Position numbers and translations under genes: made by a program | In this document: piece after piece, positions 3,692-62,257 of the stretch | How positions within the stretch are numbered: the first letter of the stretch is position 1 | Layout of the letters: every line of letters begins with the position of its first letter | Assembly (NCBI GenBank): GCA_030685235.1 | Contig: MU839122.1 | Coordinates: 267,538 to 331,537, forward strand | Origin: Copromyces sp. CBS 386.78 | Taxonomy: Eukaryota > Ascomycota > Sordariomycetes > Sordariales > Sordariaceae | DNA length: 64,000 bases | Reading direction: 5' to 3' | The notes under the pieces: model-generated | Database searches by the model: none | What the model was told of the DNA's origin: nothing | What the model saw: the letters and a program-made list of their open reading frames with translations, nothing else

Positions 3692-4888
3692 ATGACCACC
3701 CCAACCGAGTTTCACCCCTTTAATCGGCTCCCCTTTGAGCTGAGAGACCAGATCTGGAAGCTCCTCCTCCGACCGCTTGATCGCCCGGGAGCTCACTTCT
3801 TGTACGTCAAGGAACGAAAAAAGAAAGAAAAAGACGCCGGCAAGTTCCAACAATACGATGTCTGCATCACGCCCCTGCGCATGATGTCCCCATATTGGCT
3901 TCACACGTGTGTCGGCGACACGCCCAAGCGGAACCGGTCAATGTTCATGGTCGACAGCGCACTCTGGACAGCCTGCAAGGAGTCACGCGAGCTCATGGAG
4001 AAGGTGTTCCGACCAAAGGTGACCAAGCAATCTACCACGGCCTTTTTCGTTTCGTCCAGTTTGCCATATTCCCCATGTTCCAGTTCGGAGAATGCCTATT
4101 CCAGTTCGGAAACTGCCTCTTCCACCTTGGAAACTGCATCTTCCAGTTCGGAAAATGCCATGACCGTTGTTAAGTCCCGTCATTTCACCGTCTTCCAGAA
4201 TCAGGACCTCTTCATCTACCGAACCCTAAACTGGACATGGTGGCCAGGTTGCTGGTCCAGAGTTGTCAAAGACGGTGACGGTGACCCGCGGGTTTACTTG
4301 AAAAAGCTGGGCCATTCCCAAACACACGTGGCCATCGAGTAGGACGCGGCCTTTCGTGACCCGGGGTACGACATGGCATCGGTTCTCGGCAGCGCCACAG
4401 TGAATCGGGGTTCCATCGTCGGAGGCCGAATCTGGTTCATCGAATACAGCCTCCGGCCGAAGCCCAAGATGGTGATCATTCCCCGTCAACACGTGTTTTA
4501 TGACAATATCGGGGGCCGCTATGTGGAGGTGTGCACGTTCCACAACAAGTTCGACAAGAACAGAGGCCACAGAAACACGGAGATGACGTTCGATGACATT
4601 GCATCGTACAATACTTTGAACCCGGCCGGTGAATTTCCCAAGTTGTACGAGTTTGTCCGGCAAGACATATCGTCGAGAATCTGGGATGATTGGTGCTCGC
4701 AGAACCGCGGCATGGGGTCGTGGCTTCATAACGACCAAAGGGAGTACGCAAAGTTGGGGATTCTCGCCTATTTACCGCCTGGGTCACCCGATCACGATTA
4801 CGACCCGGTTCGCGATGCCCGGAAACTAAAAATACGCCATTACGGGAACGCTACAACGTTAAAACATCATTGGGTCACGCACATATGA
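3692..4888 (+). CDS. 2EXR-domain protein interrupted by one in-frame UAG (codon 217)
   Basis: The N-terminus FHPFNRLPFELRDQIWKLLL is the hallmark of the fungal 2EXR family, F-box-like proteins of unknown function that are numerous in Pezizomycotina. The frame runs 216 codons to TAG at 4340-4342, then stays open in the same frame for 181 codons to TGA at 4886. The part after the stop contains further family-like segments (RIWFIEYSLRPKP, FPKLYEFVRQDISSRIWDDW). The stop follows VAIE, a place where family members typically carry an aromatic residue. Residues 130-157 are a four-copy 7-residue Ser/Glu repeat that looks like a recent minisatellite expansion. Stop-terminated product: 216 residues; read-through product: 398. 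Candidate explanations are a nonsense allele, UAG-to-UGG mRNA editing or read-through. Skipping the stop by splicing looks unlikely, because no GTRNGT donor and branch site flank it. Confidence 0.7.
4078..4161 (+). repeat. In-frame minisatellite, four 21-bp units
   Basis: Units of the type TTCCAGTTCGGAGAATGCC plus two bases start at 4078, 4099, 4120 and 4141. They encode SSSENAY, SSSETAS, STLETAS and SSSENAM. The 21-bp length keeps the 2EXR reading frame. Confidence 0.85.
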
Positions 4889-5475
4889 AGACAGTAACCC
4901 ATTATGAAGGTTCTCAAAGATTGATTTGTGGACAAGAGTACAGCTAGGCAAGGCTCACGAGAAGAACAGAAGGAAGCGGAACTGGTCCAACACAGAACAC
5001 ATTATCATTCGTCTCTTACACTAAGCGTCAGCTGTACCATTCAGTTTTTCATGTAATTATAATTTACCCAGCAGTCCAATAGGTCAGGTAACTTGCAATA
5101 TACTACAAGCGCATGCAAATAGGTTTTCTCTCTCTTTGTCTCCCCCACACCCACACACACAAAAGCATACTATAAAAAGGGTGAATCAAAGAGGAGAAAA
5201 AGGAAAACGCGGCGAAAGGCCCCCAAGTGCATGTACTAACTGACTGCAATTGAAATCGGCCCAGGATAGGACTACTAACCGGCCGGCCGGCTAGTAAACT
5301 AAGTAAGTAATACACGAGCGGGGGGAAGGATAAGTAAGGTACAAGTGACGCTATTGCTTCTTCTTCTTCGCCCTTGGCGTTTCTTGTTATAGATTGAGTT
5401 CTCTTCTTTTATAAAGTACCTAAATACTGAGGTTGTGATAGCGGCAGACGGTATATGTACTAATTGTAGTATACT
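4889..5475. other. Intergenic, no gene seen
   Basis: Mixed sequence after the 2EXR gene. It contains a short GGCCGGCCGGC palindromic run near 5280 and an AAGTAAGTAA stretch. No coding frame or RNA gene is supported. Confidence 0.5.
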
Positions 5476-5572
5476 GTGTGGTATTATGGGGTATTATGTG
5501 GTACTATGTGGTATATGTGGTACTATGTGGTACTATGTGGTACTATGTGGTACTATGTGGTACTATGTGGTA
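5474..5572. repeat. Tandem repeat of a ~10-bp unit (GTACTATGTG)
   Basis: About nine units, the last five nearly perfect and the first ones degenerate (GTATTATGGG, GTATATGTG). The array abuts the polypurine tract on its right. Confidence 0.9.
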
Positions 5573-5573
5573 A

Positions 5574-6230
5574 ATTAGTATTAGGAGAAAGAAGGAGGAG
5601 AAGAGAAGGAGGGGAAAAGAAGGAGGGGAAAAGAAGGAGGAGAAAAGAAGGAGGAGAAGAGATGAGGGAGAAGAGAGGTGGGAGAAAAAAAGGTAGGATA
5701 AGAGAAAGCGGTGAAGAGAAGCGGGAGAAAATAGAGTAAGAGAAAAGAAACGAGAAAAAAAAAATAAGAGAAAAGAAAGTAGGAGAAAAGAAGCGGGAGA
5801 AAAAAAGCGGGAGAAAAGAAGCGAGAAAAAAAAGCAAAGGAAAAAAAACGAGGAAGAAAAGAAAAAAAAAGTAGGAGAAAAGAAGCGGGAGAAAGGAAAG
5901 CGGGAAAAAAGAAGGAAGAAAAATAAGGCAAGATGTCACAGGTTCCTGGTTGTTGTGCCTAGGTGTGCTCAAACCGTGACATGGCTATATAAGCGTGCAT
6001 TCAATGTTCTGTCTAGCGAACAGAACATTGTTCCATCTTTTGGTGGTTTGGCGGTTCTGGGCATTGCACGCCCTAGTCCCGTGACACAAGAGAAGAAAAG
6101 CGGGAGAAGAAAAGCAGGAGAAAAAAAGTAGGAAAAAAGAAGCGGAAGGAAAGAAGTGGGAGAAAAGAAGCGGGAGAAAATAAAGCGGGAGATAATAAGG
6201 CAGGAGAAAAGAAAGCAGAAACTGAAAGAC
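5574..6230. repeat. Polypurine tract (GAGAAAAGAAG-type), split by a small insertion
   Basis: From about 5580 to 5933 and from 6087 to about 6225 the + strand is almost all A and G, in loosely repeating units such as GGAGAAAAGAAG. Pyrimidine interruptions are mostly single T or C bases. The long Phe/Ser/Leu-rich open frames on the minus strand are a by-product of this composition and are not genes. The tract is interrupted by the element at 5934-6086. Confidence 0.85.
5934..6086. mobile_element. Solo-LTR-like element, 153 bp, with 5-bp target duplication
   Basis: The element starts TGTCAC and ends GTGACA, so it has the TG...CA termini and short inverted ends of an LTR. It is flanked by the direct repeat CAAGA (5929-5933 and 6087-6091), the 5-bp target-site duplication expected for retrovirus-type integrases. 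It interrupts an otherwise continuous polypurine tract, so the boundaries are clear. A TATATAA box lies near 5985. It also holds a perfect 10-bp inverted repeat, CAATGTTCTG / CAGAACATTG, at 6002-6011 and 6021-6030. At 153 bp it is small for an LTR, in the range of TRIM elements. A short DNA transposon is the alternative. Confidence 0.65.
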
Positions 6231-6280
6231 ATCATAGTATATCACGCTTTAAAAGAAGCACATGTTAATATAACTACTTG

Positions 6281-6477
6281 TTCCTTAACTCCCAGACTAA
6301 ATCTTTGCGAAGCCGCCGCATTTTGAATGGGTCGATGTAAGCTTCTAACTACCTACTAACACCGACTAGTCTCTGATTGATTCCTTAACTCCTGAATCTC
6401 TACGAAGCCGCCGCATTTTGCATGGTTCGATGTAAGCTTCTACTATAACTACCAACACCGTTACGGTCTCTGATTGA
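6281..6477. repeat. Diverged tandem duplication of a ~100-bp unit
   Basis: Unit 1 (6281-6380) and unit 2 (6381-6477) both start TTCCTTAACTCC, share GAAGCCGCCGCATTTTG and GATGTAAGCTTCTA, and end CTCTGATTGA. They differ by scattered substitutions and small indels, so the duplication is not recent. Confidence 0.85.
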
Positions 6478-6922
6478 TTCAAGTTGCCACTGGAGGAGGG
6501 TACCATATGGATACCTTAGGAGGATTACTCAATATGATTGATAGATAGTGTTTGTAGGTTTCCATAGAAGCTTCCAAGTCTCAGTCAGGCTTTCAGTCCT
6601 TCTCTCTCTTACGGTAGTCTAGGTAATAGCGGGAGACTTGGGCAACCCATACCTCTAATCCTTCCTCTTAAACGATACGATAAAGTTACCGCTCCTAGCG
6701 GCTCAATCTATCTTCTCCCCTCCCTCCACACTATCTTGGTAAAATCACCCACCGTCCACTCCAACTAAACCCCTTCTTTCAAAATATGTACACTACTTTC
6801 ACCAACTACCTCCCTCCCGCCCTCCCCTTGGGAGCTCCCCGTCCAGCTCTCGCCCTCTTAGGGTTTCCCGCCTTCTTCTTCTTATCATCCGCCGGTAAAA
6901 TCCCGGTAGGCTGAGATAAGCC
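6478..6922. other. Intergenic: 3' flank of TAF4
   Basis: No coding frame supported. The segment nearest the TAF4 stop is probably its 3' UTR. Confidence 0.5.
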
Positions 6923-9410
6923 CTACTTAACCTCATCCACCTTTGTCCTCGGCGGCTCATCAAGCCTGGTATACGCCTCCTGAATAGCCCTGACTTCAAT
7001 CCGATCCATCTCCAGCGCCGCCAAGTAATCCCTCAGCTGTATGTTTTTCCCTTGGTCCGCATTCTCTCTCCACATGCCTAGTCGACTCTTTTGGTTCTCC
7101 GATGTCAACTGCTGCGCTTTGTTATCCGCCACCGCTCCTCCTGCCCCTGCGCCACCTTTACCAGCGGGCGTAGAAAGACCATCGCCGCCTAAAGCAGACG
7201 TGCGGGGCGTACTAGCACCTGAACCGCCGCCGCCTCCGCCACCGCCACCGGCGCCGGCGTTCATCCATGAGTAGGACTTGCCCTTTTTGCGACCGAAGCC
7301 GCCCATGATGGCGTTGAGGGTCTGGTTGGCTGAGGCGGTGGACGAGGCTTCGGCTAGCTTGGCGGCTGCGGCGCCTCGCTTCAGCTCCTTCTTGGAGAGA
7401 AGCTTGCCGTCCGCGTCGGCGGTTGTGGGAGTGCCGGGCGCGACGGAGCCGGCGCGGGAACCGGTGCCACCGGCTGCTGTGTCGGGATTTTGACGCTTTT
7501 GGCGTTTGCGGAGACGGGCTTCTTCGAGATTGCGGTCGGCGCGGGCGGTTTCGCGCAGGGCGGTGGTGAGGTTGTGCTTGTTGATGTTGGGGTCGCCGAG
7601 TTTGGCAGCGTCGTAGGAGCCTGTGTAATGCAGTTAGTAGAGTTTTTGGTTTGGGGAAAAGGGAGAAAATCCGTACGCTTCAGGGGGTTCGGCTGAGGAC
7701 CGACGCCAGCGGCGGCTTCCATGCCTTCTTGAATGGCAGCATTAAGCCCCGTCTTCAAAGGCACGGCCACATCAGCCCACACCGCCGGGACCTCTCCACG
7801 GGAAGTCGTCTGGCGGTTAATCGCAATGGTATGCGCAGACTCAATTATCTGCCGGATCCTGTGCTTTGTAGCAATGGACAGCAGGGCTATCTGGTCACTC
7901 AGATATGAATCATGCGGGATCCAGGTGTCGTAGACAGCAACCAGAGCACCACCTTCACCCGTCTTTGTGCTCACCGTGACTTTGGGCTGCATTGACGAAG
8001 GGTCATTGGCTGGTTTGCTCTTGTTGACTGCACTGCCGCCCTTGAGCTCGCTGTTGAGCTCCAGCCCGTACTCCTTGGCAATCTTTTGGGCCTTCCAGTG
8101 CAGCGCGGGCACCTCCAAGAAAGGCGTTTTCATTTCGTTTGCCCTCGTCAGGGCCAACCGATGTGCCGCTTCATCCCAAGCTTTCTTTGCCAACTCCTTC
8201 TCAAACTCCTCCTGGCTCTTGCCGTCCAGAGGTTGCGAGGGCTGGTTGGCCCATCCGGCGCCGTAAAAAGAAGCCTTGCTTCCCGGTGGATTCGCGGGCA
8301 AACCGGTCCTCGCGTCCTGGGAGAAAGATCCGGCATAGTAGTCCGCCAAGGCCTGCTCTTCAGCACGCAAATCAACACCGGTACCAGCCAAAGAGTCCGT
8401 AACATCATATTCAGTTTCCTTTACCGGTCGCTCAACAGGCTTCTGAGGGGGGCCCATAGCACCACCGGCGGGGGTCGTCGGAGCTGGTGGTGGTGGTGGT
8501 GGGCCGATAGGTGCCATAGTAGCCGTCGTATACTGCTGGTTCTGCGTATTCTGGGCGGCCTGGGCCCCCATGGCATGGAGCTGCTGAGGAGTCGAGGGCC
8601 CATGGGCAGACAAATTAGGCGGAGCTAATGATGGCGTTGCCAAGCCAGGTGTCACTGGCCCAGGTGTTGTTGAAGCGGGTTGGACTGGAGGCATGGATAG
8701 CCTACTCTCAGGCATCTGCAAGCCCGCGCCGTGTGAAACAGTAGGACCTGGTCCAGGAGTAGTTGCCGGGGTCGGACCCGGAGAAGGCACAGCCAAGGGT
8801 GTGGATGGCTGAGAAAGGTTTCCGTTTGTGAGGGACTGGTTGTATTGCTGGGCACCGGGCGATTGTGTCGTCGTGAACTTGGGGCTGGCAGCTGGCGGTG
8901 TCGGGGCGGCGGTCGACTGGGGGGTAGTGGCGTAGTTCTGAGGCACGTAAGGCGAGCCCGGCTGAGAGGCAGGACCGGTGCCGGCCTGTGGGCGCTGGTG
9001 GTTCGGCGACATGGAGAATTGGGCTTGAGTGGTGGGCGCCGGGGAGGGTGTGTGCTGGGGACGAGCAAACTGCTGTTGCTGGTGCACTATCTGAGGTTGT
9101 TGCAACTGGGCCTGGGGATGCTGGAGTTGTGGATGATGTTGCTGTTGCTGTTGTTGCGGCTGCTGGATATGCTGCTGAGCATGTTGAGGCTGTTGAGTGT
9201 GTTGCTGCTGTGTTTGAGCTTGTGGGTGCCCTTGCTGATGAATCTGCTGCTGGACACGTTGTTGCTGCAGCTGCTGCGGCTGCTGCTGCTGCTGCGCCGG
9301 CGGTTGTGTCTGTTGTGGGGCATGCTGCTGTTGCAGTTGTTGTTGTTGTTGTTGTTGTTGCAACTGCTGAGGAGGCTGACGAGGCTGAACGTGTTGCTGA
9401 GGTTGGGCGC

Positions 9411-9441
<31 letters not shown>

Positions 9442-9606
9442 TTGTTGCTGAGCATGGGCTTGGGCTTGGGCTTGTTGTTGGGCGAGCATCTGGGCACGTT
9501 GTTGCTGGAGCTGGAACTGTTGCAACTGCGGCGTGACCTGTGGTGGTTGCCCCGCCTGTGGTTGCTGCAACTGAGGCATCTGAGGCTGTTGCGGCGGTTG
9601 CGCCAT
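6923..9606 (-). CDS. TAF4: TFIID subunit TAF4
   Basis: Two exons on the minus strand, 9606-7677 and 7620-6923, give 875 residues. The 56-nt intron has donor GTACGG, branch CTAAC and acceptor ACAG. The start ATG encodes MAQPPQQPQ; the frame is open further upstream but shows no better start. Residues ~1-130 are glutamine-rich (long CAG/CAA runs), and ~130-390 are Pro/Ala/Thr/Ser-rich. From ~405 comes the TAF4 C-terminal domain, with EEQALADYYAGSFSQD, the helical EFEKELAKKAWDEAAHRLAL segment, and SDQIALLSIATKHRIRQIIE, the histone-fold-associated helix that contacts TAF12. After a Gly/Ala linker it closes with the conserved SRLGMWRENADQGK and RDYLAALEMD segments. TAF4 is a core scaffold of TFIID in RNA polymerase II initiation. 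It is divergently oriented to YSH1, sharing about 800 bp of upstream DNA. Confidence 0.9.
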
Positions 9607-13400: not shown

Positions 13401-13622
13401 GAAGACGAGCAGCAGCTCACGGCACGCAAGCAAGCTGAAGTGGCGAGACTACACAAAATGGGCATCCCCGTCCCGGGAGTGCAGATCAAGTTGGATGAGA
13501 AGATGGAGGCCAAGGTGTGGTTGGAGGATTTGGAGGTGGAGAGCTCGAATAAGATTTTTAGGGAGAGGGTTAGGGCGGTGGTGGAAAGGGCGGTGGAGGT
13601 TGTGGCGCCGCTTTGGGGGTGA
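10408..13622 (+). CDS. YSH1: Pre-mRNA 3'-end endonuclease Ysh1/CPSF73
   Basis: Four exons: 10408-10557, 10622-10719, 11151-12994 and 13138-13622, giving 858 residues. The protein starts with a basic leader and [16 protein letters not shown], the first strand pair of the metallo-beta-lactamase fold. The metal-binding motif is H83-F-H85-I-D87-H88, followed by [11 protein letters not shown] and a beta-CASP region with [23 protein letters not shown] and the conserved [10 protein letters not shown]. The C-terminal third resembles the CPSF73-100_C domain. Ysh1 cuts pre-mRNA at the poly(A) site within CPF/CPSF, in the nucleus. Intron 2 is 431 nt, long for this window, and splits the HxHxDH motif between the first His and the following Phe. 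Intron 3 is 143 nt and pyrimidine-rich. Correct splicing of intron 2 is therefore essential to make the active site. Confidence 0.93.
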
Positions 13623-15203: not shown

Positions 15204-17139
15204 ATGGACAGCTTCAGCAAATGGTACCGCCCGCATTATTCACCAGATGTAGTTCCCGACCGCCTTCACAAGACTTTGTTCCACCACCCTCAGCCCATGA
15301 TCCGAGGCAAAGATGGCGCCCCCGTCACTGCTAGACTCATCGTCCCACCTCGGACCAAAGCGGTCTCGGGCGCGCTGGTCGACTATGCCGCCGTTGTTGC
15401 CGTCACCCCGCGACCAGACCCGCGGTTCTAGGGGACCACGGCAGTGCACATGAAGATGGTGCTGGTCCAAGAAGACGAAGAACAGCAAAAGGAGGAGAGG
15501 AAGCGACAGGAGGAGGGGGTGATGCAGTCGATAGAGAAGGTGGATGAAGACGGCAATGTGGTACACCGCATGGATGGCAGAAATAACTACCTGGATGAAC
15601 AAGGTAAAACATCAACGAGATAGATACTCTCGATCAAATTGTTCTCAGGCCTGACTAACCTTCTCATAGGCAATATCATGTCGCGTGACGCGCTTGTCCA
15701 TCCATTTTATGGGGACCGACTAGATCTCCAACAAGAGACCTCGCACCCAAAGCGATACATGCCCACTACTCGCAACGCCAAGATTGAGGCAAACACCGAA
15801 TTCGGCGCCTTCACAACCGTGGGAGTGTCTGACCCAGCTACGGACAACAAAGACAACGTCAAGCACCAAGACGAAGACATTGCCATGGATGAAGAAATCA
15901 CCATCGAAGAGAACAAAGATAGCTACACCGACATTGCCGCCGCCATCGACGCCAAGACGAAATGGATCCCCATCCCTCTCGACAAGCAGGTGATTGAAGA
16001 CGTCAGCTCCTCGGAATATGGTCGTCTAGGCATGGACCCAAAGACATTGTACTTTGTGTTTCAAAACGTGCGGTTCCCGTGCAAGCACGGAAAATACCGA
16101 GTCCTATTCGACGTGGTGGTGAACGAGTACCGGGACGGCCAAGATAACAGGTTCCCGCCCTTGCATCTGTGGCCGATGGGGACATATCCCGGTGACTGTG
16201 AGGAGATGAAAAGGATGTATAATGGTAGCTATAAAGCTGGCGTGTTGGAGTTTGGGCACAATGTGCACGTGACGTGTTCAACTTATTGGACAAGGGTTTG
16301 TGCCGTTGACTATTTGGGTGAGTACATACCTACTTCTTACCTGCCTTGTCTTGGTATTTTGGTCAAGGGCAAGACTTGACTTGGGCGTTTTTGTTGAATA
16401 AACCCCCCCGATCACTTCCTGATCTTTTGGATTGAACTGTCCTATGGGTTGGATTTTTCTTTTGCTGACGTTGATTTTGTGCAAAACAGACCCGGTACAA
16501 TACGAGGTGGTTGAAACGATTGTCAAGACTAGGCAACTTTACACTGAGAAGCTGTGGCACGTGGAGAGGGCATCATGGTTGGCGGCGCGCCAGAAAGAGC
16601 ATCAAGCCCAATGTCCCATCCAAGTCCTCCCAGCCCATGCCCAGTGCGAAACTCAAGCCCAAACCCAGGCCAACAACAGTCAAGCCTTTGCCCAGGTTGT
16701 CCCATCTCATACCGAGGCCCGAAGACAACCGCGAATCCAACCACATCATATTCAAGCGCATAGCCCAGCGCAAATCCAGGCCCAGGCCCAGACTCAGGCC
16801 CATACCCAGGCTGAAGCTCAACCCCACGCCCAGCAGGGCCACATTCAAGCCCCCCAGGCCCAGAACCAGTCGGAAATCTCAGCACATACCCAGGGCAAAA
16901 TTCCAGCTCGCACCCAGGGCAAAATCTATCTGCACAACTACCCCCAAAACCTCAATCCCCATGTCCAACCTCTAGTCGAAAAAGGCAAAATCTATGCGAA
17001 CAACTGTCCCCCATCCCTCCAACCACAAGTTGAAGAATATGATCCCGCCCAAGGATGGGCGGGACGCGAACGGTACTCATCAGGTGTTCAATCATCTCCG
17101 TCTGATACTGAGGCCCAGGATTCATGCCACGAGGAATAG
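15204..17139 (+). CDS. Velvet-like protein, paralogue 1, with an in-frame UAG at codon 76
   Basis: Exons 15204-15603, 15670-16317 and 16490-17139; introns of 66 and 172 nt with standard signals. The ATG has a good context (TCAAGATGG). Reading through TAG at 15429-15431 gives 565 residues; stopping gives 75. The frame upstream of the TAG aligns with the paralogue at 20900: ARLIVPPRTK with AQLLVDFPRK, and TPRPDPRF-stop-G with YPKPDPAIYG, so the stop replaces a Tyr. The second exon holds LYFVFQNVRFPCKHGKYRVLF, which resembles the velvet-domain core (aromatic strand, then FPDLSVR-type and EGRYRL-type strands). The last intron has the same phase and place in both paralogues. The C-terminal 200 residues are a Gln/Ala/His-rich repeat tail. 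Velvet proteins are fungal regulators of development and secondary metabolism; membership here is inferred from pattern and is not certain. A shorter product starting at the ATG at 15450 is possible. Confidence 0.6.
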
Positions 17140-19242: not shown

Positions 19243-19440
19243 GATTTAATAAGCCTTGTTGAACGAGGAAGGTACTTGATTGGCTAATTTGCATTTATCC
19301 AAATGCCCGCTATAGACGGTCGCTAAAAGTGCCCTATCTTTGAACCCTATCTTTAAGATTTTTTCCAAGTTCCAAAGTTCCTTCCCCAAAGGAGATTACC
19401 CTATATTAAAAGCAGGAACGAAGCCCACTATTAATCAATT

Positions 19441-43006: not shown

Positions 43007-46000
43007 CTAATTCGAAACATAACCTTCATCCTCCGCATACTCCTCCATAATCTCCCTCTCAATCTCCTCATCTACCTTTTTCCAAGTCCCCATGCCCAAT
43101 TCCCTCCTAACATCCCTCTGGATCCTCAAGAAATACCTCCTCAAGCTCCTCAGACCTCTCAAAAACCCATTATCCGGCTCCTCCGGAAACTGCGGCGGAC
43201 ACGGTTTTCCCTCGATGCCATTCGCCCTCAAGTCTTCAGCCGTGACGCAGTTGGCAAAATCCGCCATTTTGAAGTCGATTTCGTGCTTGTCCTTTCTCTT
43301 TTTCCTTTGCCCCCCGTTACCGTGAGAAAAGGCGTTGCCATTGTGGGTGCGCTGTTTGCTGGCCATAAATGTGGCGTCATCGTTATCTGTCGCGAAATCG
43401 GTCGAGTAGTAGTCTTCCAACGCCGTGTCGTATTCCGAGTGCGTGGTTGTGGCAGGGGTGGGGGGTGTAGGAGGAGGCAGAGGTTCGCCATCGTAGAACA
43501 TTAGGAGGGAAGCAGCGTAGAAGCGGTACCCCTTGAGACGACGGATGATGACTTCCAGCTCCGACAGCTTGTGCAGCACCGTGGGGATGTGTCGCAGGAT
43601 CGAGGCGCGGTCGACGCCGTCGTAGAGGAAACGCGTCAAGGCGTCTTGGAACTCTTGTCCGGCTTTGAGGTCGCGGCCGTAGTACTTGTCTTTGAACACG
43701 TACGACTGCGTGGCCACGTCCCAGACCTGCAGGCCGCAGACGCGCACGCCGAGCTCGCGCGAGGTGGTCTTGGCGCATTTGCCTTGTTGGGACTTTTGCT
43801 TCTTGGGGGAGGCTTCGACGCCGTATTGGCGCGTGCCCATCTTGAGGTCCATGATGCAGGGACGCTTCATGCCTGCGGTCAGGTCTTCGAGTAGCAAGAA
43901 GTACTCGACGCGGGAATCGGTTTGTGTTTGGGCTTCTTTGGGGTTGATGGGCCGGGGGATCTTGGCAATTTCTTCGTGGATTTCGTCGTCGTCGTCGTCG
44001 GCGATGGCATTCTCATCGTTGACACCGTTGGTGCCATTGGTGCCATTGTGAAAAGTGTCCAAAGGCCCAATGGACTCCTTTGCAGCAGCGAAATCTTGTT
44101 CGTCGACAGAGTCGACCTCAAACACAGACTCCTCGTTATCAGCCTTGTAAGCAGCCGAGTCAGCCTCCTCAAAGTAGTGCAGGTCACCGCGCGCATCCTG
44201 AACGTCCTTCGGCTTCCTCCTCAACCCGGTTCCCGAGTACCGACGCTTCTTCACCGGCTGAGCGGGCGACGCATCCTTCAGGATCTCTGGCTCAGGAGCA
44301 CTAGTCCCCGTCACGTCCTGAGGCCCGTCGTCTTCCACTCCTTCCTCCCTGAAGCTGCGCGGTCTGGCGGTGGCCAGGTTCTCCTCGCTTCGCACTAGGT
44401 GGCTGGGCTTGAGGCGCGACTCCTCACCGGCACTGCTGGCCCGCGGCTTGGCATCTTGAGCGACTTCCAGGTTCGGATCTGACTCGGTATGGCGGAGAAC
44501 TGGCTGCAGACTTAATCGAGAGAAGGGTCTTTGGTGACCCTTCTTGTGACGGTGAACAGCAATGGGCTGCTTGAGGAAGGCGTCATTGAACACCTTGTTG
44601 CGCAGTCGCTTGTTCACCATGGTGGCTCCCCAGCTGTTAGCATGCCGGTCCTCCAGCCTTGGCCGCAACATGTGGCTGGGGTTCTCAGCATGATATTGTC
44701 CGTTGGGAGTCCTACCCCCATGGACAGAGGCCGAGGCACTCCGGAAACGAGTGAAGGAGCTTGACGATGCCAATGCTGGCTGGATCAGGCTCCGTGGGAG
44801 AATGTGCTGATTATCAACAAAGGTGACAGTAGGGATCTGACCCGCTGGTTGCTGCATCGACTGGCTGATGATGCGCTGCTCTGGCTGTGCCGGCTGGGCA
44901 CCGTTTGTTAGCGCTGTTTCGGTCCCTTTAGCACCGGAGCTAGCTTCATTTTGACCGGCTGCAGGGGCTTCCAGTGCAGCAGCCGCCTCATCTCTCTTGT
45001 GCACCGATCTTCGTCGAGGCTTCTTCTGGAACGTGACGTTCAAGACACCAATATATCTGCAATAACAACAACGTTAGTCTTGGATCCCATACGGATGGAT
45101 ATTCATGATACATGTGGACAACATACCTTGGCAGAAAAGCCAACAAGTCGCGGTGATATTGCTCAATTTTTTCATAGAATTCATTCTCTCGGTTGTTCAA
45201 CTGCTTACAGACGGCCCGCCGAGAAAAGCGCCAGAGGGTGGTGTGCCCTCCGACTTGGTGTTTGTAAGGGATCAGTTCAATTGCATCTAGGGGCTGGTCT
45301 TTGGTTTCCCCTTGGTGGTCATGGACAGTCTCTTCGGGATGTAAGTGATGGGGAGAAGGATGCGCAGCAATGGACAAGGACGGCTTTGATTGTGGTGCAA
45401 GGACACCAGTTTCACTCTCGTCCGCAACGGCAGGTTCATTGACTTTGCCAGTGTCTATCTGAGAACCTACAAAAGGAACAGTAGCAGCAGCGCTGTCGGC
45501 AGGCTTAGCAAGCCGATGGGTTTTTTCAATGTCAGGACACTCGTCTAGACATTCAACTTCAGGCTCACCGGCTTTCACAAGCCAGGGATGGAAATCTTCA
45601 GCTCTCGAGTGTGTTCTTGACGGAAGCACGCTTCGGGAAGAAGCCGCGCCAGGCACGTCGGAGTGCTCCTCAGCCTCCTCGGGGCATTGATGTGGTAGGA
45701 ACACGGCCGACGAAATCTTTTCCTCCCCAGACTCTTCGCCATCTTCCGTATGCGATCCACCGTCAATGCTAGCATCGGATTTGCGCCGCGGCTCCGGCTT
45801 GCGATCCAATGACGGAGACCTTTTGCCAGACTCTGTTCCAAAATCTTGGACTGCAATCGTATGCTCGCGACCCGGAGCAGCAGGAGGCTGCTGCTGCTGC
45901 TTTACCTGGGCTGGCTCCTCGACCGGCTTGGCTAAGAAATAATCTTCAGCGGTTTTATCGCCGGCCGGGGATACTGGAGTAAGCAAGGCAACAGAGCGAG

Positions 46001-47081
46001 CCTGGGCTGGTTCGTCAGCTTCGGGTAACTGTGTGTCCTCTGATGCAGATGCGGGCACAGTAGTAGTCCGTGACTTTCCTTCAGCCTCTGTCTCGGTCTC
46101 CTCGGCCGTTTCGGCGGTCGAAGGGAGCCTGTCTTTCTTGGTATCCCTCTTCTTGGACTTTTCGTCGGGCAGACCCTCTTTGAAGAAGCGCAGACTGTGG
46201 CTGGCCTTGCGGCTGCGGGCATTGGGCTCGACGCCGGCCAGGACCTCGGTAATGGACTTTTCAACCATGCCGTCCTGGTCATCCGTCAGCTCTCCCACGC
46301 CGATGGACCATGCCTTTTCGGGAACCGTCTGGGCTCGTTGATCCTTGCGCAGCCTGGGGATAGCGTTGTCACCGTTGTCAGCGGCTCCGTCATGGTTGCT
46401 CAGAGCGGTAGGGGATTCTGAGAGCTTGGTGAAGACGACAGGATGGCTGCTATCAGCACTATCTGTGAAGTCGGTCCGTTCTAGGGACCTTCCTCGGCCC
46501 TTGTTCTTTGTAAGGTATTCGCGGTGGCCCTTGAGCATGGAGTTGACCTGACGCAGATCGAGCTCGATGACGCCACCCAACGGAGGGCCCGTCATGGTGG
46601 CGGTGGCAGTCATGGACGGCATGGTGTGTGTCTTGTGGAAGTTGGAGTTGCGAGGGGAGCCGGCTTTCGGGGTCAAGGCGTTGTCTTCTTCTTCGTCTTG
46701 GAAAGCAGGCTGCTGTTCATAACGGTGTTCTTGTGGTGGTGGTCGATGGTCGTTATCGTGCTGTTGCTGCTGTCTGGTATGATTTTCAGACGGAACGGCG
46801 GACGGAGGATGAGACTCGACGACTTGAGGTCGAGGTTGAGTAGGAGTGTTATCAGCTGGTTGTTGCTGGGGGGTGTAGGGGTTGTTATGATTTGTGCCAC
46901 GAGCTGTAGCAAAAGCCTGGGTCAGCAAGGAAGCGCCAGGACCGGAGTGGTGTCTCTGGAGATAAGCAGCAGGGCCGCGGTGGTATTTAATCTGGTCTGC
47001 AGCTTGTCTTGCGGCATGTGTAACGGTATGATCTGAAGTATCTGCGACAAGGGTGGTGGGAGTGGGGACGGCGGCAGCAGG

Positions 47082-47112
<31 letters not shown>

Positions 47113-47360
47113 GGCGGATGTCCGGGCTGATGTTCGTCGTCGTCTTCTGGGGGTGTTGGGGGACCCGGGGACAGGGACGGCGAGGAAGACACGACGATGT
47201 GATGTTTCTGGTCTTCTGGGGGGTCGACCAGGGGGAATTTATGAGATGAGAGTTGGGAGTCTATGATGGAAGATGAAGGATCTTGACCAGCAACCCGAGC
47301 AGGGCTCACCGAAGCAGCGGGAGCGGCATGATAATTGTTGGTCGAATGCAGGTTCGACAT
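43007..47360 (-). CDS. KCS1: Inositol hexakisphosphate kinase Kcs1
   Basis: Exons on the minus strand, 47360-45127 and 45056-43007, give 1427 residues. The 70-nt intron has donor GTATGT, branch CTAAC and acceptor GCAG. The start encodes MSNLHSTNNYHA. The first ~700 residues are disordered, with a poly-Ala run and Glu/Ser-rich parts. Residues ~690-745 have the conserved VGGHTTLWRFSRRAVCKQLN that begins the IPK fold, with the intron right after LLAFLPRY. The catalytic half carries PCIMDLKMGTRQYG near residue 1150, the PxxxDxKxG signature of inositol polyphosphate kinases, plus YFLLLEDLTAGM, ASLLMFYDGE and DFKMADFANC. Kcs1 makes the pyrophosphate 5-IP7 from IP6 and acts in phosphate sensing. The two kinase segments are separated by ~350 low-complexity residues, as in yeast Kcs1. 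Confidence 0.93.
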
Positions 47361-50338
47361 GGGGAGGACATCTGGCGGTTGCGCAGACACAGGAATTGAC
47401 GGGCGTTTTTGGGGTTGGCGGTCGATCTGTTGTCAATTGTGGTGGTGGTGGTGATGATGATGTCGGTGTTGTGTGTTTTGGGGGATGTTTTTGGTGGCAG
47501 CGGTAGGGAATCCGAGATCCCTCTAAACTGAACAGTAGACGGACAGTGGAAAGAGGACCGTGTGAGTGGAGACAGTGCGTATTAGGAAACGCCAATGCTG
47601 TCCAATGCCGCCGCCCCGCTTTCGATTCTCGTCTTTTTCGCTCTTGGCTTCGGCCGTTCGCCAATGGCTTTGCGAACACTACCAGCCAGGTACGTACCTC
47701 GTTAACAATTACTGGTGAAATGAAAATGGTGATGGACATCAGGAACCCGACAGGAATGGAGGATATGCGCAATGGATGGTGTAATGCCCCATGTTTTACG
47801 CGCAGTGGCCAAAATGTCAACGGTGCAGGTGATGCGTGCACTGATCATTGGAATGGGGTTTCCAGGGGCATGAAGGAGCCAGCACTACGTGTAACAACGG
47901 GTGGCGGTTTCTCAACATGTCTCTGACCAAAAATGTACCTTTGTTATACTGTCACTTGAACAATTCAAGGTTTTTGTTAGTGTCAACAAGGGAGAAAACC
48001 TCTTGGAAATGTCGCGGTCCCGTCCCCATGGCGATCCCAGATCAGGTGGCCCAGAGATCATGCCCTCTGGCCCTAAAGGTACCCAGGAGTACGTACCTTT
48101 TCACCTTACCCCGGATTGCACATCTCGATTTTAATCTTCTTTTAGACTCGTGCTGGACTCCATCCGATACACTTCCTCTCCACCATTATCCCTTCTTCGG
48201 TCCACGTTGTCAACCCTATATCGCTTATTTACAGCCATTGCATGCAGAGCATCAGACAACTATAGCCGAGTCAAAGTATCACGTTCCCTCGATCTGATGG
48301 TTGACAGGTTCGTCCCGCTCCGCGAACCTCTTCTCATTGGCTTTTCCCAATTCATGGCCTTTCACCCGTTTTAATCCCTTGGATATGATTGCCCAGCCCG
48401 CCGGTCCCTATCTTATGCATCTCACCAATTCCGCATCTCGATGACGACCCGCTATGTACGTCCGTACGTCTGCTATAATGCTCCCGGACTCCGGCACGGC
48501 GCATGGTTTCCATGTCTTCCAGGTTTCCTTCCTTGACGGGACTGACAGGAGCCCGACATCGCATCTGGGCAGAAATTGAAGACTCGAGGCTGTTATCGCG
48601 GGCGGCAATCATGTTATCCCCGGCGCAAATCATGCGCCTTCCTTCCTTCTGTGCAACACACCTTGTTCGCTTACCGATAGTGACCGGTCAACGGCAGGTC
48701 CAGTCTCCGACACAAAGCGGGGATCTCATGACATGCCATCGTGCCAATGTCGTACATACCTTAGGGCATATACCTCCCTCATGATTCAGGAACAAATAAC
48801 ACCAACAGACGAACCCAACTCCTCTCGACGGCCTCTCCGGTTCGTCACTCTGAAAGTCTGGGGTTTGAACTCGGCTCGGTACAGCCGGCTCGAGACAATC
48901 TGAAACCAACCCCCTAAAGATACAATACTGTATCAGTTTGGTTTAGTTGTTCGAGACTTTTGGCTCCTCTTACAATGACACTCACAGTCCCAGAATCCCA
49001 TGCCAAGCAAATGGACACAACACCAACCAATCAAAAGAAAACGTGCTTTCAAACTGACCGCTCCCTGGAAACCGTCAACATCCCGGCCGCTCGGAACCAC
49101 GTTCACCACTGAACCGTCCACTAACAGCCCCCATTCAGTTGGGCCCATTTGGTTCCATTTAATCGGACATTTGCCAGACTCCACACCAGACGACATGCGG
49201 TCCACCAGCAAGCAGCAACTTCAGCAAACCACCATTCCAAGCCCTGTTCTCAACACTCGCAAAAGACATCGTGATCTCATCAAGATTTCCCCAAGATGTC
49301 CCAAGATTGGCCAGACCACAGCAGAGCAGTTTCCCAGGTTCGGCGCTCTCGTCCGTGCCTAGACTTCTAGATCAATGCCCACTCCGCTCTTAAACACGTG
49401 CCCCACGCCTCTGGACTTGGAAGTTATCCAGATCGGCGGACAGCGGCATGCCGGCATTTGCAATTGTCTAATTCTTAGGTATGGGCCAAGCAGGCCGAGC
49501 CAGTCAATTGTTCAAGGCCAGAAAAAAAGTTAAACAATTACCAATGGCTTCACCACGCCTTGTCACAAATTACAAACGAGAAAACTGCACAGGAATGCAG
49601 CCCTGGATCCTGGGGATATTGACTGGCTAGTCGTCAAGGTGGTGAATGAAGGCTGTGTGTGGGACAGTGTCCATTCAGCGTCATACATATACACGCAGTC
49701 GAAACTCGAAAGAGGATAGGCAACTACCAAGCAAAAACCCTGCTGTCGATCATTATCGCCCAAGGAGAAGGTTACGTACACCACTACTCTCACATTTAAT
49801 AATGCGCCGTCATTCCGCCTTGGGCCAGAACACTCAGGGGAAACATGGAAACAAAAAAACAGGGCAAGTAAAAGGAGTCGAAGTCGAGTGCGTGGCTTTT
49901 GGAAGGGTTGTTACAGGCCCGCTAACACCCCTCTCAAGAGCACGTCACTAGCGGCATGTCCTTATCCGTACAAGTTATGATATTCTAAATTCGCTGACAT
50001 CCTTCCTTCAACAAGGCCCAACGAGCACCCGACCGGCCGGTAGGTTGTAGTACCGACTACCGACCCCCTTTTCCCCCCTTTTCTTTAAAAAAAAAAAACC
50101 ACCACGAGTCTAGATAGGACTCCACGAGCCCACAAGTAAAGCCCACGACATACACGACATACATGCTGTGCATAATCGGAAACATCAAGAAGCAGTCAAG
50201 TCAGCCAGCCAGCCAAACCAGCCAGCCAGCCAGCCCTGCTAAGGCTTAGGCCTCCGGCTTGTATATCCGTCGTATGTAGTGGCATGTTCTGTGCCCTTTT
50301 CGTCTTCTATTCTATCCGCCCTGACCTGACCTAGCCTC

Positions 50339-50401
<63 letters not shown>

Positions 50402-51592: not shown

Positions 51593-51601
51593 TTCGTGTC
51601 T

Positions 51602-56570: not shown

Positions 56571-57552
56571 GTGGGATGGAAAGTGTGAGTGATGATATCC
56601 TTGTTTTGTTGTTGTTATTGTTGTTGTATACCACTCTGCTATTTGGGTATGATCGGACATGACAGAAGCGGGCCAGTGTTTCTTTGGTTTGGGTAGTTAG
56701 CTAGATATCTCAGTGATGAACTGATGATGTACAAACGGGTATGGAGTCAGCATCTGAAATCCAGCATTGACCTCGACAAAAAACGGTGCAAGATGGAAAA
56801 TCATACATGCATTCATTTTCTTGGGTACCCAGTGGTTCTCCTGAATTCCTGAAGCCTTGTGCAGTTCAGTGACATGTACCTCTAGGTAGGTTCATGCAAG
56901 AAAGGGGTGAGGGATAGGGTTACAGCCGGAGCTGTCTTCCTCAGCACATGACATGGAAATGAGTCGATTCTGCACCTGCAGCTTCCACTTTTCGGGATGC
57001 CAGGCCGCCTGAAAAGTTTCAAGTTTTCTTCAATACGGTAAGATATGAAATATTTCCAAGCACCTTGAGTTTCGGCTCTTTCTTCCTTGATTAATCCTGC
57101 CAGCTGGAGGCTTGCGGGAACCGGTGTCATCAAGAACTTGAACCTTTACCTTATGTTCGGTAATCAGATATCGTCGTCGGTTTCAAATTATTGTCACTGA
57201 CAGTTTCCGTTCTTAACTTTCTTTAAGGGACTCCGGAAGCCCTCGCCTACAGACATCACCTATCTCGTTGTCGATATTCGCAACAAGTGCGAACGGAACT
57301 CCCGTCGTGCTCGAAGGGGAACAAAGCAGAGCAGACAGAACAGCTACCTCTACAGCGTATCACTACAGTGAGATATGCCCTACAGTAGTACCTACTATCA
57401 CTATTAGCACCACCCACTACAAGAAAGGTATCCCTTTGACACACAGGGGTAAGCGCCAACACCCGGCCTTCACCAAGAACAGCCCAGTGGCAGCCATTCA
57501 TCGTCAATCAGATCTTGTCTTTTCTTTTTATCAATTCCATCGGTTAGTCCAA

Positions 57553-57586
<34 letters not shown>

Positions 57587-57859
57587 GTCACTACCGCACA
57601 TGTCAACAACAACTCGGAATCGCTACCATCCCCTCCGCCGGAGACGTCCTCATTGACAAGCAAGCTCCGACATGCTCGGCTGCTGACGTCCGACAGTCCC
57701 AGTTACTCCATCCAGAAACGTTGGATCAAGGTTGTCACCTTTGAACATCCGATACCCACCCGACCGCATGACCGCCGACCGATCGCCTTCCAAAGGAGGA
57801 CACAACAAGAGTCGGACATTTACTCTACCTACGAGGTCGCCCCTGGCGCACCAGACGGG
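56571..57859. other. Intergenic and SPT20 leader
   Basis: A CAT/ATC trinucleotide run is at 57556-57582. The frame upstream of the SPT20 ATG is open for 69 codons but lacks any ATG, so it is treated as leader. No other gene seen. Confidence 0.5.
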
Positions 57860-59500
57860 ATGCCAAACACCACCAGCACAATGGGCCCCGCTACTGCCAT
57901 CAGCGCGTCGCCTCAGATGTCGCAACCCCAACCGCCGCCGCCGCCAGCCGCGTCCAAGATCAAGCGTCCTATTCCCCCGGGAATCCAGACCAACGGCATC
58001 AACACAGCCTCGCCCAACTCTGCCTCCCCTCTCATGTCCGCCAAACGCGCCCCATCTGCCGCTCGTCAGCCGTCAAATCCCCCCGGCGCAAATAATAATA
58101 CAATGGCCAATGGCTCCCCTGCTCGACCACCCCCTCCCAACCGCCCTCGCAATCGGGCCCCGTCTGCCCATGGCCCCGTTCCCGGAACCGCTCAACGTCC
58201 TCCGCCTTCCGCTGCCTACTTGGACACACCGTCTCTCTCTGTCCCCAACGTCCCAATATCCGACAGGGACTTTCTAAAAAAGCATGCCGGGAACCGACCT
58301 TCCATCATCATACACCTCCACCAAACACATTGGCGCTTCGATCAACAAGAAACCGTGTCCAGCTACAAGTCACCCCTTGGCCTGGCTCTTCTCCCCCACA
58401 TCAGGAGTCGAACAATTCCTCACGATTTGCTTCCATACCTCCATCAAGAAGGCGTTTCCTTCTACGACGGTTGCTTGATCGTCCAAGTCCACAGCTATGG
58501 GACCGTCACTCCGCCCAAGGGGCCAGCAAAGGAAAAAGTTCCGGCCTCGAATGACCAGTCCATCCACAGGTGGTCTTCCTACGTTACCCCCTCGCCATAC
58601 GCCCCATACCCCAAGGAGGCCCTCCAGGAGCACCAGGGCGCCCAGCCCAACGGACTCACCAAGCAGGAAGATACAAAGGGCGATGACAAGGAGAATGTTC
58701 CAACCCAGAATGGCCAGGCCGACGGCAAAAGCAATCAAGAGGTGGCTAAGCGCAAGGTCGTGACCATTGTGCTACGTCCCACGCCAGAGAGTCTGGCTGT
58801 AGATCTGACATTGGGGATTAGCAACCCTATGGCCAAGGTTATGGGGATTCCGCCGACTCCCAGCACCGCTGCACCGCCGGTACAGACGCCCATGGGGCCG
58901 CCCAGCAGGAAAAGAAAGGCGGACCAGATCGAGTTGGACCCCAGGAACCTTGTGGCCGCCGAGGCCCAGATCTTGCTAAGCACCCTACCGCCTCTCGACT
59001 TGGAACCCACAAGAGACCCGGAGCAGCTCATTGCAAGGCTCGAGCAGCAAACAATGGCAGATCCAGCCCATTCGTATGCCCCACCAGAACCCAAGCGACG
59101 CAAGAAGACGGACGCCGAGCTGGCAGAAGAAGACGCCCACGCCAGGCAGATGGAGCAGTACATGCTTGCGTGCGACGAGAGCAGGTCCAACAGGGCTGCT
59201 GGCGCTCCGGGTGCTGGTCGTGGGTCGGATGGTACTGGTCAAGCCACTGGTTCAGGTTTCGAGCCGCGGTTCAATCAGTTCCAGCTTCTCGAAGAGATCA
59301 AGGCTCGGGTGGAACAGGAGAAGGCTGAGAAGGAAGTCCAGGAGGCCGAGCAACGGCGGATCTTGCAAGTGAAGCAACGGGAGCAGGCTCAGTTGGCAGC
59401 TCAAGCGCAGGCAGCGAAGCAACAAGCTCAAGCACAGTTGGCCGCTCAAGCTCAGGCGGATCAGCAGCAGCAGCAGCAACAACAACAACAACAACAACAA

Positions 59501-59536
<36 letters not shown>

Positions 59537-61483
59537 CAACAGGCCTTGCTCATGCAACAACAAAAGTTGGAGATGGACCGTCTCAACAAGGAGAATCAGA
59601 GGAAAATGGCTATGGCTCAGGCACAACAGCAACAGAAACAGGCGCAGCTTCAGCAACAAGCTCAGCAGCAAGCCCAAGCCCAGGCTCAGGCTCAGGCTCA
59701 AGCCCAGGCTCAGGCTCAGCAACAGGCCCAACAGCAAGCCCAACAGCAGGCTCAACAACAACAGCAGCAACAGCAACAACCGACGTCGATGGGCACACCA
59801 CATACTATGCCTGCTACAATGCAGAATAGCCCTAACATGGCTAACACCATGCCTAATGGAGTAGCGAGATTTCCCCAGGTATCCCAAGGCCAAGTCTCAT
59901 CACCCATTATCCGCCAGAATACGCCACAGACGGCATCGTCCCCCATGGTTAACAGCGTGGCTATGCAAGCTTCCAACTCCAACATGGGCGGGAGCCCAGC
60001 CCGGCCTCCATCCGTGGCTCAGAGCCATGGTCCGATGTCCGTTCCCATGGCCGCCAGTATGTCTGCTAGAGGCAGTCAACAGAGCCACGCAGCCGGAACG
60101 CCTAGGATGCCCAGCGTCACCCCTAACATGGTCCACGCAACGCCCATGAGCCGTCCTTCGGTCGTCCCAACACCACGCCTGACCCAGGCCAGCCCACCAC
60201 CTGGAATGATGACGAACCAGCAAGTCGGCCAGGGCATCATGATGAACGGCCCAACGGGAATGCCCCAGATGAACGGTATTCCAGTTCCACCAAACCTGAA
60301 TCCTCAACAGGCTGCTCAATACGTTGCTGCTCAACAGCGAATGGTGCAGCAACGAATGATCCAAGGACATGGCAACCCTATGATGGCCGGGCAGATGACA
60401 CAAGCCCAGCTACAACAGCGGATTGCTCAGCAACATATGATGGCTGCTCGTCAGCAGCAGCAACAGCAGCCGCATATGATGGCTCCTGGGACTCGGGATC
60501 TCGCTGCGCAGTACTCTGCCACGCTGGCTAACCTACAACAGCAGCAACAGCAGCAACAGCAGCAGCAATACATGGGTCAGTTGCAAGGACAGATGCGCGC
60601 GGGTATGGTCGGCCAACCAGGCCAGGCGGGAATGATAAATATGGCTGGTCTAAACCCTCAACAAGTAGCCATGATGCAACAACAGATCGCCATGCGACAG
60701 CAACAACAGCATCAAATGGCTCAACAACTCCAACATCAGCAGCAAGCCGGACAACAAGGTCAACCCGGCGTTTCCACTCCCGGCCAACTTGTCTCGGCTC
60801 CCGGCCAACCCGGCATGCCCGGCCAAGTTGGTGTTCCCCGGCCCAATTCCGGAATGGCGGGAATAAGCCAGCAGCAATTGGCCGCCTTCTCCATGAACCC
60901 AGCGGTGATGCAGCAGATCAACAACGTGACGAACTCGCTGTACTCCAAGAGGCTGCCTGGGTTTGCCGAGAAATGGGGAGGTCAACCCAACAACATCCCG
61001 CCAGACCAGATGCAATTGTTTAAGAGCCAGTGTCAGTCGCATGCTAAGACCCTTGTAATCCAGAACTACATGAAGGCACAACAACAGAACGCGGCGAATG
61101 CGCAGATGGCAGGACAGATGGCAGGACAGGGAGGACAAGGTGGTGGACACGGCGGTCAGATGACCCAGCAGCAAATGCAGCAGGCAATGGCTCAACAAAT
61201 GAACGGTGGTGGCGGCCAGATGGGCGGCCAGGGTCAGGGAGGGATGCAGGGACAGATGGGTGGTGGTGGTAACATAAACGGTATGGTGGCTGCTGGGCAG
61301 ATGAACGGTATGGCCGGCCAAATGGCCGCTCAACAAATGGGGGGTATGAATCCTATGGCTTTGCAGCAGTTGCAACAGCAGATGCAGTTGCAGATGGCTG
61401 CTGCTCAGCAACAACAACAGCAGCAGCAGCAACAACAGCAGGGTCAACAGCAGGGGATGATGGGTAATCAGCAGGGAATGTAG
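57860..61483 (+). CDS. SPT20: SAGA complex subunit Spt20
   Basis: 1207 residues with no visible intron, to TAG at 61481. Residues 1-125 are Pro/Ser/Asn-rich. The Spt20 domain runs from ~125 to ~410: RDFLKKHAGNRPSIIIHLHQ, then FDQQETVSSYKSPLGLALLP, HDLLPYLHQEGVSFYDGCLI and VQVHSYG, and after an insert VTIVLRPTPESLAVDLTL and LDPRNLVAAEAQILLSTLPP. A coiled, Gln/Ala/Glu-rich helix (~470-560) contains almost 30 consecutive Gln. The rest is Gln/Met/Gly/Pro-rich, with one conserved-looking island (NNVTNSLYSKRLPGFAEKWG). Spt20 keeps SAGA intact and recruits it to RNA polymerase II promoters. The start is the first ATG of the frame (MPNTTSTMGP). The frame continues past the stop, see 61484-62257. Confidence 0.9.
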
Positions 61484-62257
61484 GACGTTCCACCGACTGA
61501 CGTAGACGTTCCTGGAGTTGATGTAAATGAAGACGAAGATGAGGGTGGTGGTGGGTATGGGGAAGGGGGTGAGGAGCATGAGGCTCAAGTGCAGGAAGGC
61601 CAGCAAGAGCAGGTACTGGAGCAAGGCCATCGACAAGAAGGCCAGCAACAAGGTCAGCAGCAAGGCCAGGAAGAGCAGGGAAAGATACTGCAAGAGCAGG
61701 AGACGGTTATAGCTCAGCAACAGGACCAACAGGAAGAACAGGGAATGTAGAATGGCCTGGTTCCCGTTGAGATGCATGAGGACATCAGAAGGGAGCAGCA
61801 GCAGGAAGAGAAAGCCGCTCAAGCTGAATCTCAAGCTCAAGCTCAAGCTGAACCTCGGGCCGAAGTTGAAGCTCAAGCCGAATCACCCGAGACAAGACGC
61901 AAAAGGCTTACTCTAGAGCGCCACAAGATATGGCGTCAGAATCGCAAAGCTCAGCAGCAGCAGAAGAACGAGCAGGCTGCTCTAGCTGAACTCCAAGCCA
62001 GAACTGAAGCTCAAGCTCAGGACGAACCTCGGGTCGAAGCTGAAGCTCAAGCCGAATCATCCGAGACAAGACACAGAAGGCTTAATCGAGAACGCATGAG
62101 GATACGGCGTCAGAATCTCAAAGATCAGCAGCAGCAGAGGAACGAGCAGGCTGTTCCAGCCGAACTCCAAGCCAGAACTGAAGCTCAAGCTGGGGACGAA
62201 CCTCAGGACGAACCTCAATCTCAAGACCAAGCTGAACCTCAAGCTGAAATCTCATGA
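61484..62257 (+). CDS. Possible C-terminal extension of SPT20 beyond two UAG codons
   Basis: In the same frame as SPT20, 88 codons follow the first TAG up to a second TAG at 61748. Another 168 codons run to TGA at 62255. Both UAGs follow Gln-Gly-Met. The first piece is Val/Asp/Gly then Gln/Glu-rich. The second contains two ~55-residue repeats, each with an AEAQAES, an ETR(R/H)-basic block, QQQ(K/R)NEQA and ELQARTEAQA. The copies differ by conservative changes and no frameshift, which indicates selection on this frame. It could be a stop-suppressed or edited SPT20 tail, a decayed former end of SPT20 (CAG to TAG in a Gln-rich context), or a separate small gene starting at the ATG at 61772. Confidence 0.5.

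Follow-up and report, generated by a model that had tools for sequence, protein, structure and literature searches.

Four in-frame UAG codons as candidate sites of sexual-stage mRNA editing in a genomic stretch of Copromyces sp. CBS 386.78

Adenosine-to-inosine (A-to-I) editing of mRNA in the sexual stage is established in the Sordariaceae, in Neurospora and Sordaria (PMC11156358, PMC5381528, PMC6794485). Stop-loss editing, which turns the UAG at a canonical stop into UGG, has been described for hundreds of genes in Fusarium graminearum and N. crassa (PMC11156358) and for 15 genes with peptides in S. macrospora (PMC6794485). Editing that corrects a premature UAG is associated with faulty gene models: PUK1 was first mis-annotated through spurious introns (PMC7306014, PMC4817773), and CHE1 of Fusarium, a gene with a conserved edited premature stop, came with three annotation artefacts (PMC11169179). 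Here we analyse four in-frame UAG codons in a stretch of 64,000 nucleotides (nt) from Copromyces sp. CBS 386.78 (the window), a genus placed in the same family as Neurospora and Sordaria. This strain is a dung fungus.

The four UAGs fall into two classes. Those at 4340-4342 and 15429-15431 are internal stops, the first in a 2EXR-family gene and the second in a gene that had been called 'velvet-like', and those at 61481-61483 and 61748-61750 lie at the end of SPT20 and are stop-loss candidates. All four are in frame, with the frame open on both sides, as the first-pass annotation of this DNA had claimed; the one at 61481 is the normal SPT20 stop and not an interruption. On balance, we favour sexual-stage A-to-I editing as the best explanation, whereby the 2EXR and 'velvet-like' genes would be whole, with one UAG each undone in the mRNA, and SPT20 would undergo stop loss in a fraction of its transcripts; for the SPT20 class this is plausible. 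Site by site, editing in perithecia appears likely at 15429, rather probable at 4340, evenly poised at 61481 and doubtful at 61748, in that descending order. The genomic sequence gives good support to two candidates for premature-stop correction, and adds a good candidate for stop loss and a weak site (61748).

In the proposed mechanism, the Tad2-Tad3 deaminase with its cofactor Ame1 would act on an A preceded by U, by preference one in a hairpin loop, and would convert UAG to UGG (Trp) in the 2EXR and 'velvet-like' mRNAs during the sexual stage, whereas without editing only truncated proteins of 216 (2EXR) and 75 ('velvet-like') residues would be made. SPT20 would gain a tail of 89 residues (Trp plus 88) if its canonical UAG were edited, and a further 169 residues if the second UAG were edited as well, each in a fraction of transcripts. 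We infer that the A's are edited, and likewise when, by which enzyme and to what effect.

The immediate context of the four codons is uniform: U stands at -1 and G at +1 in all of them. A purine at +3, which editing favours (PMC11156358), is present at four of four sites compared with 51% of the TAGs in the window. Each candidate A had been said to fit a hairpin loop, and this depends on the length of the stretch folded: in minimum-energy folds the A is in a hairpin loop at four of the four sites at ±15 nt, at three at ±20 and ±30 nt, and at two at ±50 nt. At ±30 nt, the folding size of the Fusarium work (PMC4817773, PMC9600606), three of the four sites had a loop probability of at least 0.985, a level reached by 73 of the window's 1159 TAGs (6.3%); three or more of four at that background has a P of about 0.001, assuming independence. 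By minimum-energy folds alone, the three of four sites compare with a background of 31% (P 0.09). The A at 4341, which combines U at -1 with a hairpin loop at ±30 nt, scored 0.99 at that size and 0.75 at ±50 nt, and the A at 61482 scored 1.00 at all four sizes; only at these two sites, 4340 and 61481, does the hairpin remain at ±50 nt.

The site most likely to be edited is that of the 'velvet-like' gene, for which the relevant features are as follows.

15204..15603, plus strand: exon 1 of the 'velvet-like' gene, which holds the UAG (deposited protein P0079)
15378..15431, plus strand: 54-nt stretch GTCGAC...TTCTAG, an intron in the deposited model, judged exon here
15429..15431, plus strand: in-frame UAG with its A at 15430, a candidate for premature-stop correction
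15670..16317, plus strand: exon 2, in agreement with deposited P0079, with phase-1 GT-AG introns on both sides
16490..17139, plus strand: exon 3, in agreement with deposited P0079
20900..22207, plus strand: gene 2, paralogous to the 'velvet-like' gene but diverged from it, and uninterrupted (E 5e-4 and 7e-4 for two BLASTP segments)

The UAG is codon 76 of exon 1 and lies inside an exon of a gene intact on both sides, the frame staying open on to a GT-AG intron placed at 15604-15669. Comparison of the deposited proteins from Copromyces (P0079) and Pseudoneurospora amorphoporcata (P0080), 88% identical over 99% of the query, revealed that both are without exactly 18 codons ending in the UAG, jumping from ...SGAL to G.TAVHMK; what was removed as an intron in both models is VDYAAVVAVTPRPDPRF plus the stop. 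Identity between the two proteins is 51 of 58 residues before this gap and 53 of 58 after it. Because a sense codon in Pseudoneurospora would give its model no reason for an intron, the stop is probably common to the two genera, judging from these protein models. The relative in Neurospora sp. IMI 360204 (P0082) starts downstream, in exon 2. We judged the 54-nt stretch to be exon because it carries the homology of exon 1 to gene 2, located 3.8 kb away: read through the UAG, exon 1 aligned to gene 2 with a score of 59 (shuffle mean 34.1, standard deviation 5.0), a level that 1 of 2000 shuffles reached; removal of the 18 codons lowered the score to 33, which 999 of 2000 shuffles reached. Exon 2 scored 58 (3 of 2000 shuffles as high). 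In the exon 1 alignment the UAG stands opposite a Tyr of gene 2 (PRPDPRF-UAG-GTTAV versus PKPDPAIYGEAV).

The name 'velvet-like', which comes from the first-pass annotation, is weakly founded and is kept here as a label. P0079, P0080 and gene 2 had no Pfam match, the gene is not among the nine PF11754 (velvet) matches of the genome, and profile support was weak (60% probability over 73 columns in a comparison with the genome's own velvet proteins). An AlphaFold prediction for P0079 gave no usable fold (mean predicted local distance difference test score, pLDDT, of 29.5). As a separate observation, a probably spurious 54-nt intron that hides a UAG is common to the models of two genera, and public genomes could be screened for edited stops by looking for introns of this sort.

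The second internal UAG lies in a gene of different family.

3692..4888, plus strand: 2EXR-family gene, single exon, with UAG at codon 217 (PF20150 match ahead of the UAG, E 4.7e-10)
4340..4342, plus strand: in-frame UAG with its A at 4341, a candidate for premature-stop correction
4343..4885, plus strand: part of the 2EXR gene after the UAG, 181 codons

Membership in the 2EXR family was clear (40.9 bits against a cut-off of 24.8). The frame runs for 216 codons from the ATG at 3692 to the UAG and for 181 codons after it within one exon, so that the gene is intact on both sides, with weak homology in its tail. The tail has a coding score of 0.10 in frame and of -0.08 to -0.35 in the five other frames, where the 5-95% reference range is 0.02-0.34 for known coding chunks and -0.40 to 0.06 for off-frame chunks. 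Stops as few as in this tail occurred in 0.3% of 2000 dinucleotide shuffles (0.003), and stops as few as in the stretch after 15429 in 5.1% of 2000 (0.051). The tail probably belongs to the architecture of the family, as suggested by a paralog at C22 that matches the N-terminal part of the window gene (E 3e-22): its downstream stretch in frame +2 resembles the window tail with a score of 54, reached by 0 of 500 shuffles (maximum 49), the aligned pair being IWLIDYRLR...VWYGGDGCRFVEI versus IWFIEYSLR...VFYDNIGGRYVEV. A second C22 stretch in another frame scored 49, which shuffles matched (maximum 51), and a genome search with the tail at E ≤ 1e-3 returned only the gene itself. Downstream of the 2EXR gene, at 5500-6250 of the window, we noted a long purine-rich stretch with GGAGAAAAGAAG-like repeats.

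At the SPT20 gene the arrangement is that of a complete frame followed by two serial extensions.

57860..61483, plus strand: SPT20 (SAGA subunit) frame of 1207 codons, counted from its first in-frame ATG and closed by the canonical UAG (PF12090, E 2.8e-32)
61475..61491, plus strand: perfect 7-bp hairpin with the A of the UAG in its loop (P 1.00 at all four fold sizes)
61481..61483, plus strand: canonical UAG stop of SPT20 with its A at 61482, a candidate for stop loss
61484..61747, plus strand: first in-frame extension, 88 codons, Q/E-rich
61748..61750, plus strand: second UAG (A at 61749), in the same 12-nt context CAGGGAATGTAG
61751..62257, plus strand: second in-frame extension, 168 codons, ending in TGA
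61850..62197, plus strand: two tandem in-frame 174-nt (58-codon) repeats within the second extension

The PF12090 match (112.3 bits against a cut-off of 27.1) identifies the frame as SPT20. Because 61481 is the canonical stop, editing here could be at most stop loss, and this is plausible given a canonical UAG, a hairpin and an in-frame extension, all of which we found at 61481. A first helix of at least 7 bp around the TAG occurs at 2.2% of the 1159 TAGs. Read with a 7-nt loop, GUAGGAC, the hairpin has its A third, after U. In the anticodon loop of tRNA, A34 after U33 is the normal substrate of Tad2-Tad3, and the A at 61482 would by analogy take a like position. On the plus strand of the window, the sequence CAGGGAATGTAG is confined to the two SPT20 UAGs.

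Among the alternatives, the best survivor takes the UAG at 61481 for an ordinary stop and the extension for a 3′ untranslated region (UTR) kept open by CAG/CAA-like repeats; to this reading we give about half of our expectation for this gene. Codon-level composition speaks for it: the fraction of G or C at third codon positions is 0.47 and 0.42 in the two extensions versus 0.62 in the core, their synonymous bias is slightly negative, and the two copies of the 174-nt repeat differ at 4/14/3 first, second and third codon positions, mostly at position 2 (14 of 21), with 2 synonymous versus 16 nonsynonymous codon changes. A frame of 408 codons is also open on the opposite strand. Against an ordinary stop stand the scarcity of stops in the two extensions together (1 versus a mean of 7.8 in 2000 dinucleotide shuffles, P 0.0015), the stability of the hairpin at 61481 at every fold size tried, and the precedent of stop-loss editing with long tails and peptides in Sordaria, for example 131 residues on white collar 1 (PMC6794485). 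Neither codon bias nor repeat divergence revealed constraint on the extension at the protein level, which would be supportive of stop-loss editing and is not required by it, and the tail looks like an open UTR or an unconstrained protein. The second-position bias of the differences between the repeat copies is itself unexplained. A search with the C-terminal region of SPT20, a Q-repeat-rich query, found no relatives among 7987 candidates, and a search with its SEP region gave at least 76 matches (best 44%), with Neurospora or Sordaria labels on none of the matches listed and the C-terminal motif usefully placed in one of the 76 listed (P0006, 67 residues to its end).

For the two internal sites, it is unlikely, in our estimate, that the UAGs are plain nonsense alleles or marks of young pseudogenes, that is, chance stops in fast-evolving, dispensable genes of the 2EXR and 'velvet-like' kind. 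The 2EXR family does decay in this genome: of its 29 matches, six have a stop inside, and upon inspection of all six, four looked decayed, the match or its surroundings holding several mixed stops (C4:25405, C59, C229, C183). Each of the two window genes, on the other hand, has a single stop and no frameshift, the sequence that follows the stop is coding-like, and the stop at 15429 is probably shared with another genus, Pseudoneurospora. Repeat-induced point mutation (RIP) was considered as a source of the stops and rejected, as its indices were not raised (TpA/ApT 0.48 and 0.53 in the 2EXR and 'velvet-like' genes, both low). The remaining two stop-bearing 2EXR matches are of another kind. In the C22 paralog, the conserved CK-ESR motif contains a lone TAG (C22:116296) that is preceded by 144 open codons and followed by 169, and the tail of this paralog continues in other frames only. 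At C46:17009, a TAG stands where six of seven matches to the motif LPxELR..IW carry TGG (LPWELR) and none of the seven carries TGA or TAA; the frame has 336 open codons after the TAG and no in-frame ATG before it, and may be broken. Neither TAG has a convincing hairpin, the A of C22 lying outside and that of C46 beside the end of a stem at ±30 nt. These cases hint that UAG-gated members recur in the 2EXR family, three genes being too few for a statistic.

More unlikely again is the gene structure as deposited, in which a real 54-nt intron closes with the UAG at 15429 and editing is unneeded. Two deposited models (P0079 and P0080) have this intron, and TAG can serve at 3′ splice sites, a fact that on its own would favour UAG over other stops among apparent interruptions. 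The stretch, however, starts with GTCGAC and holds the whole detectable homology of exon 1 to gene 2, and a CTRAC branch point is absent from the 60 nt upstream of this UAG, as it is from the 60 nt upstream of the other three, while both accepted introns of the 'velvet-like' gene have one. The check for 5′ splice-site motifs in this gene missed both accepted introns and is hence uninformative. Ribosomal readthrough of UAG without editing would yield the same products and is very improbable, as CARYYA and CUA contexts promote readthrough and the next codons (GAC, GGG, GAC and AAU) offer neither. Taken together, the editing proposed in the first-pass annotation gains support at 15429 and 4340 from the shared spurious intron, the homology, the absence of a branch point and the absence of a RIP signature, and is reduced at SPT20 to stop loss at most, with a tail whose codon bias and repeats do not support it as protein.

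Besides the codon-level results for SPT20 given above, several observations weigh against editing. Single editing sites are often unconserved between species, according to PMC5381528. The A at 15430 forms a hairpin at ±15 and ±20 nt only (P 0.12 at ±30 and 0.00 at ±50 nt), so that 15429 lacks the loop at the Fusarium folding size, and the A at 61749 does so at ±15 and ±30 nt only, with none at ±20 or ±50 nt. A hairpin is a preference rather than a requirement, and such a miss would not exclude editing because about 62% of edited sites in Fusarium lie in predicted hairpin loops (PMC4817773). The C22 tail match is weak, lies in a different frame from the C22 2EXR domain, and was missed by tblastn at E ≤ 1. 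As a positive control, an orthologue of PUK1/STK-21 with a UAG was sought and not identified among 141 Pkinase matches; 13 of these contain TAG, and in the seven of the 13 viewed by eye the TAGs look like intron sequence or intron ends. Finally, open-frame counts alone give no excess of UAG. Since counts over all loci examined are biased, many having been chosen for TAG, we surveyed 114 kb of contiguous DNA on both strands for in-frame stops preceded by 70 or more open codons and followed by 55 or more, and found 164 (85 TGA, 32 TAA and 47 TAG); with at least 150 open codons before and at least 55 after, there were 4 TAG, 6 TGA and 3 TAA.

The claim that all such stops are UAG thus fails for plain open frames and returns once coding quality is considered. 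A filter that demands a coding-like codon score on both sides, above every other frame, leaves four of the 164 stops: the UAGs at 4340, 61481 and 61748, the two SPT20 sites not being independent, and one TGA. This TGA lies 47 kb upstream of the window amid GTGAGT and TACTAAC, a canonical-looking intron, and is likely within an intron of a gene that, read from its translation, resembles a fatty-acid hydroxylase. The UAG at 15429 narrowly misses the upstream threshold (0.024 versus 0.055) and passes downstream.

As for the machinery, the Ame1 (DUF726) family is present at three places in the genome, any of which may be Ame1, and the deaminase fold PF00383 has seven matches, among which Tad2 and Tad3 may lie. 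A TAG in one DUF726 match (C16) was set aside, as it looks like an intron end. Elsewhere in the window, at 43007-47841 on the minus strand, three long overlapping frames stand in a row (678, 800 and 200 amino acids), from several exons or a frameshift.

If the sites are edited, Copromyces would be added to the genera with sexual-stage mRNA editing among fungi, and real coding sequence would be missing from some public gene models. Edited stops could then be found from DNA and deposited models alone, through introns that are short, preserve the frame, have an in-frame TAG as their very last codon and recur in related genomes. An edited SPT20 would tie editing to a transcription coactivator, and genes with stop-loss editing include chromatin-related ones according to a review (PMC7306014). 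As a long shot, SPT20 might have two serial editing-gated tails, so that proteins of about 1207, 1296 and 1465 residues, counted from the first in-frame ATG, coexist in fruiting bodies at proportions governed by editing, and families that evolve fast, 2EXR among them, might also be a reservoir of recurring UAG-gated members (the window gene, C22 and C46) that give proteins only in sexual development. Editing of this kind is a known phenomenon; the sites are new, and we found no report for the genus in the literature searched. There, no report linked SPT20 to RNA editing in Neurospora (genome-wide editing tables of N. crassa lay outside the search) or joined 2EXR to RNA editing, none of the ten best matches dealt with both Copromyces and RNA editing, and the four papers that mention Copromyces or Pseudoneurospora concern other subjects, judging by their titles.

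Compared with the known systems, the internal sites resemble the PUK1-like premature-stop-correction editing of Sordariomycetes in having a lone UAG in an intact gene, U at -1 and a preference for hairpins, and in automatic models with a spurious small intron or a downstream start (PMC4817773, PMC11169179, PMC7306014, PMC11156358). They differ in that the candidates were read from DNA alone, in the genus Copromyces, in a 2EXR protein and a Sordariaceae-limited 'velvet-like' protein, and in that 15429 is without a hairpin at ±30 nt. The SPT20 site at 61481 shares with stop-loss editing a canonical UAG, a strong hairpin and an open extension, and differs in its two serial UAGs in the same 12-nt context and in a tail without sign of selection. 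CHE1 of F. graminearum differs in that its editing takes place in hyphae and its product is a zinc-finger protein, and for 15429 conservation is read from two protein models; the likeness lies in a conserved UAG and in annotation errors of the same kinds, the 'velvet-like' gene showing two of the three, a small intron and a downstream start (PMC11169179).

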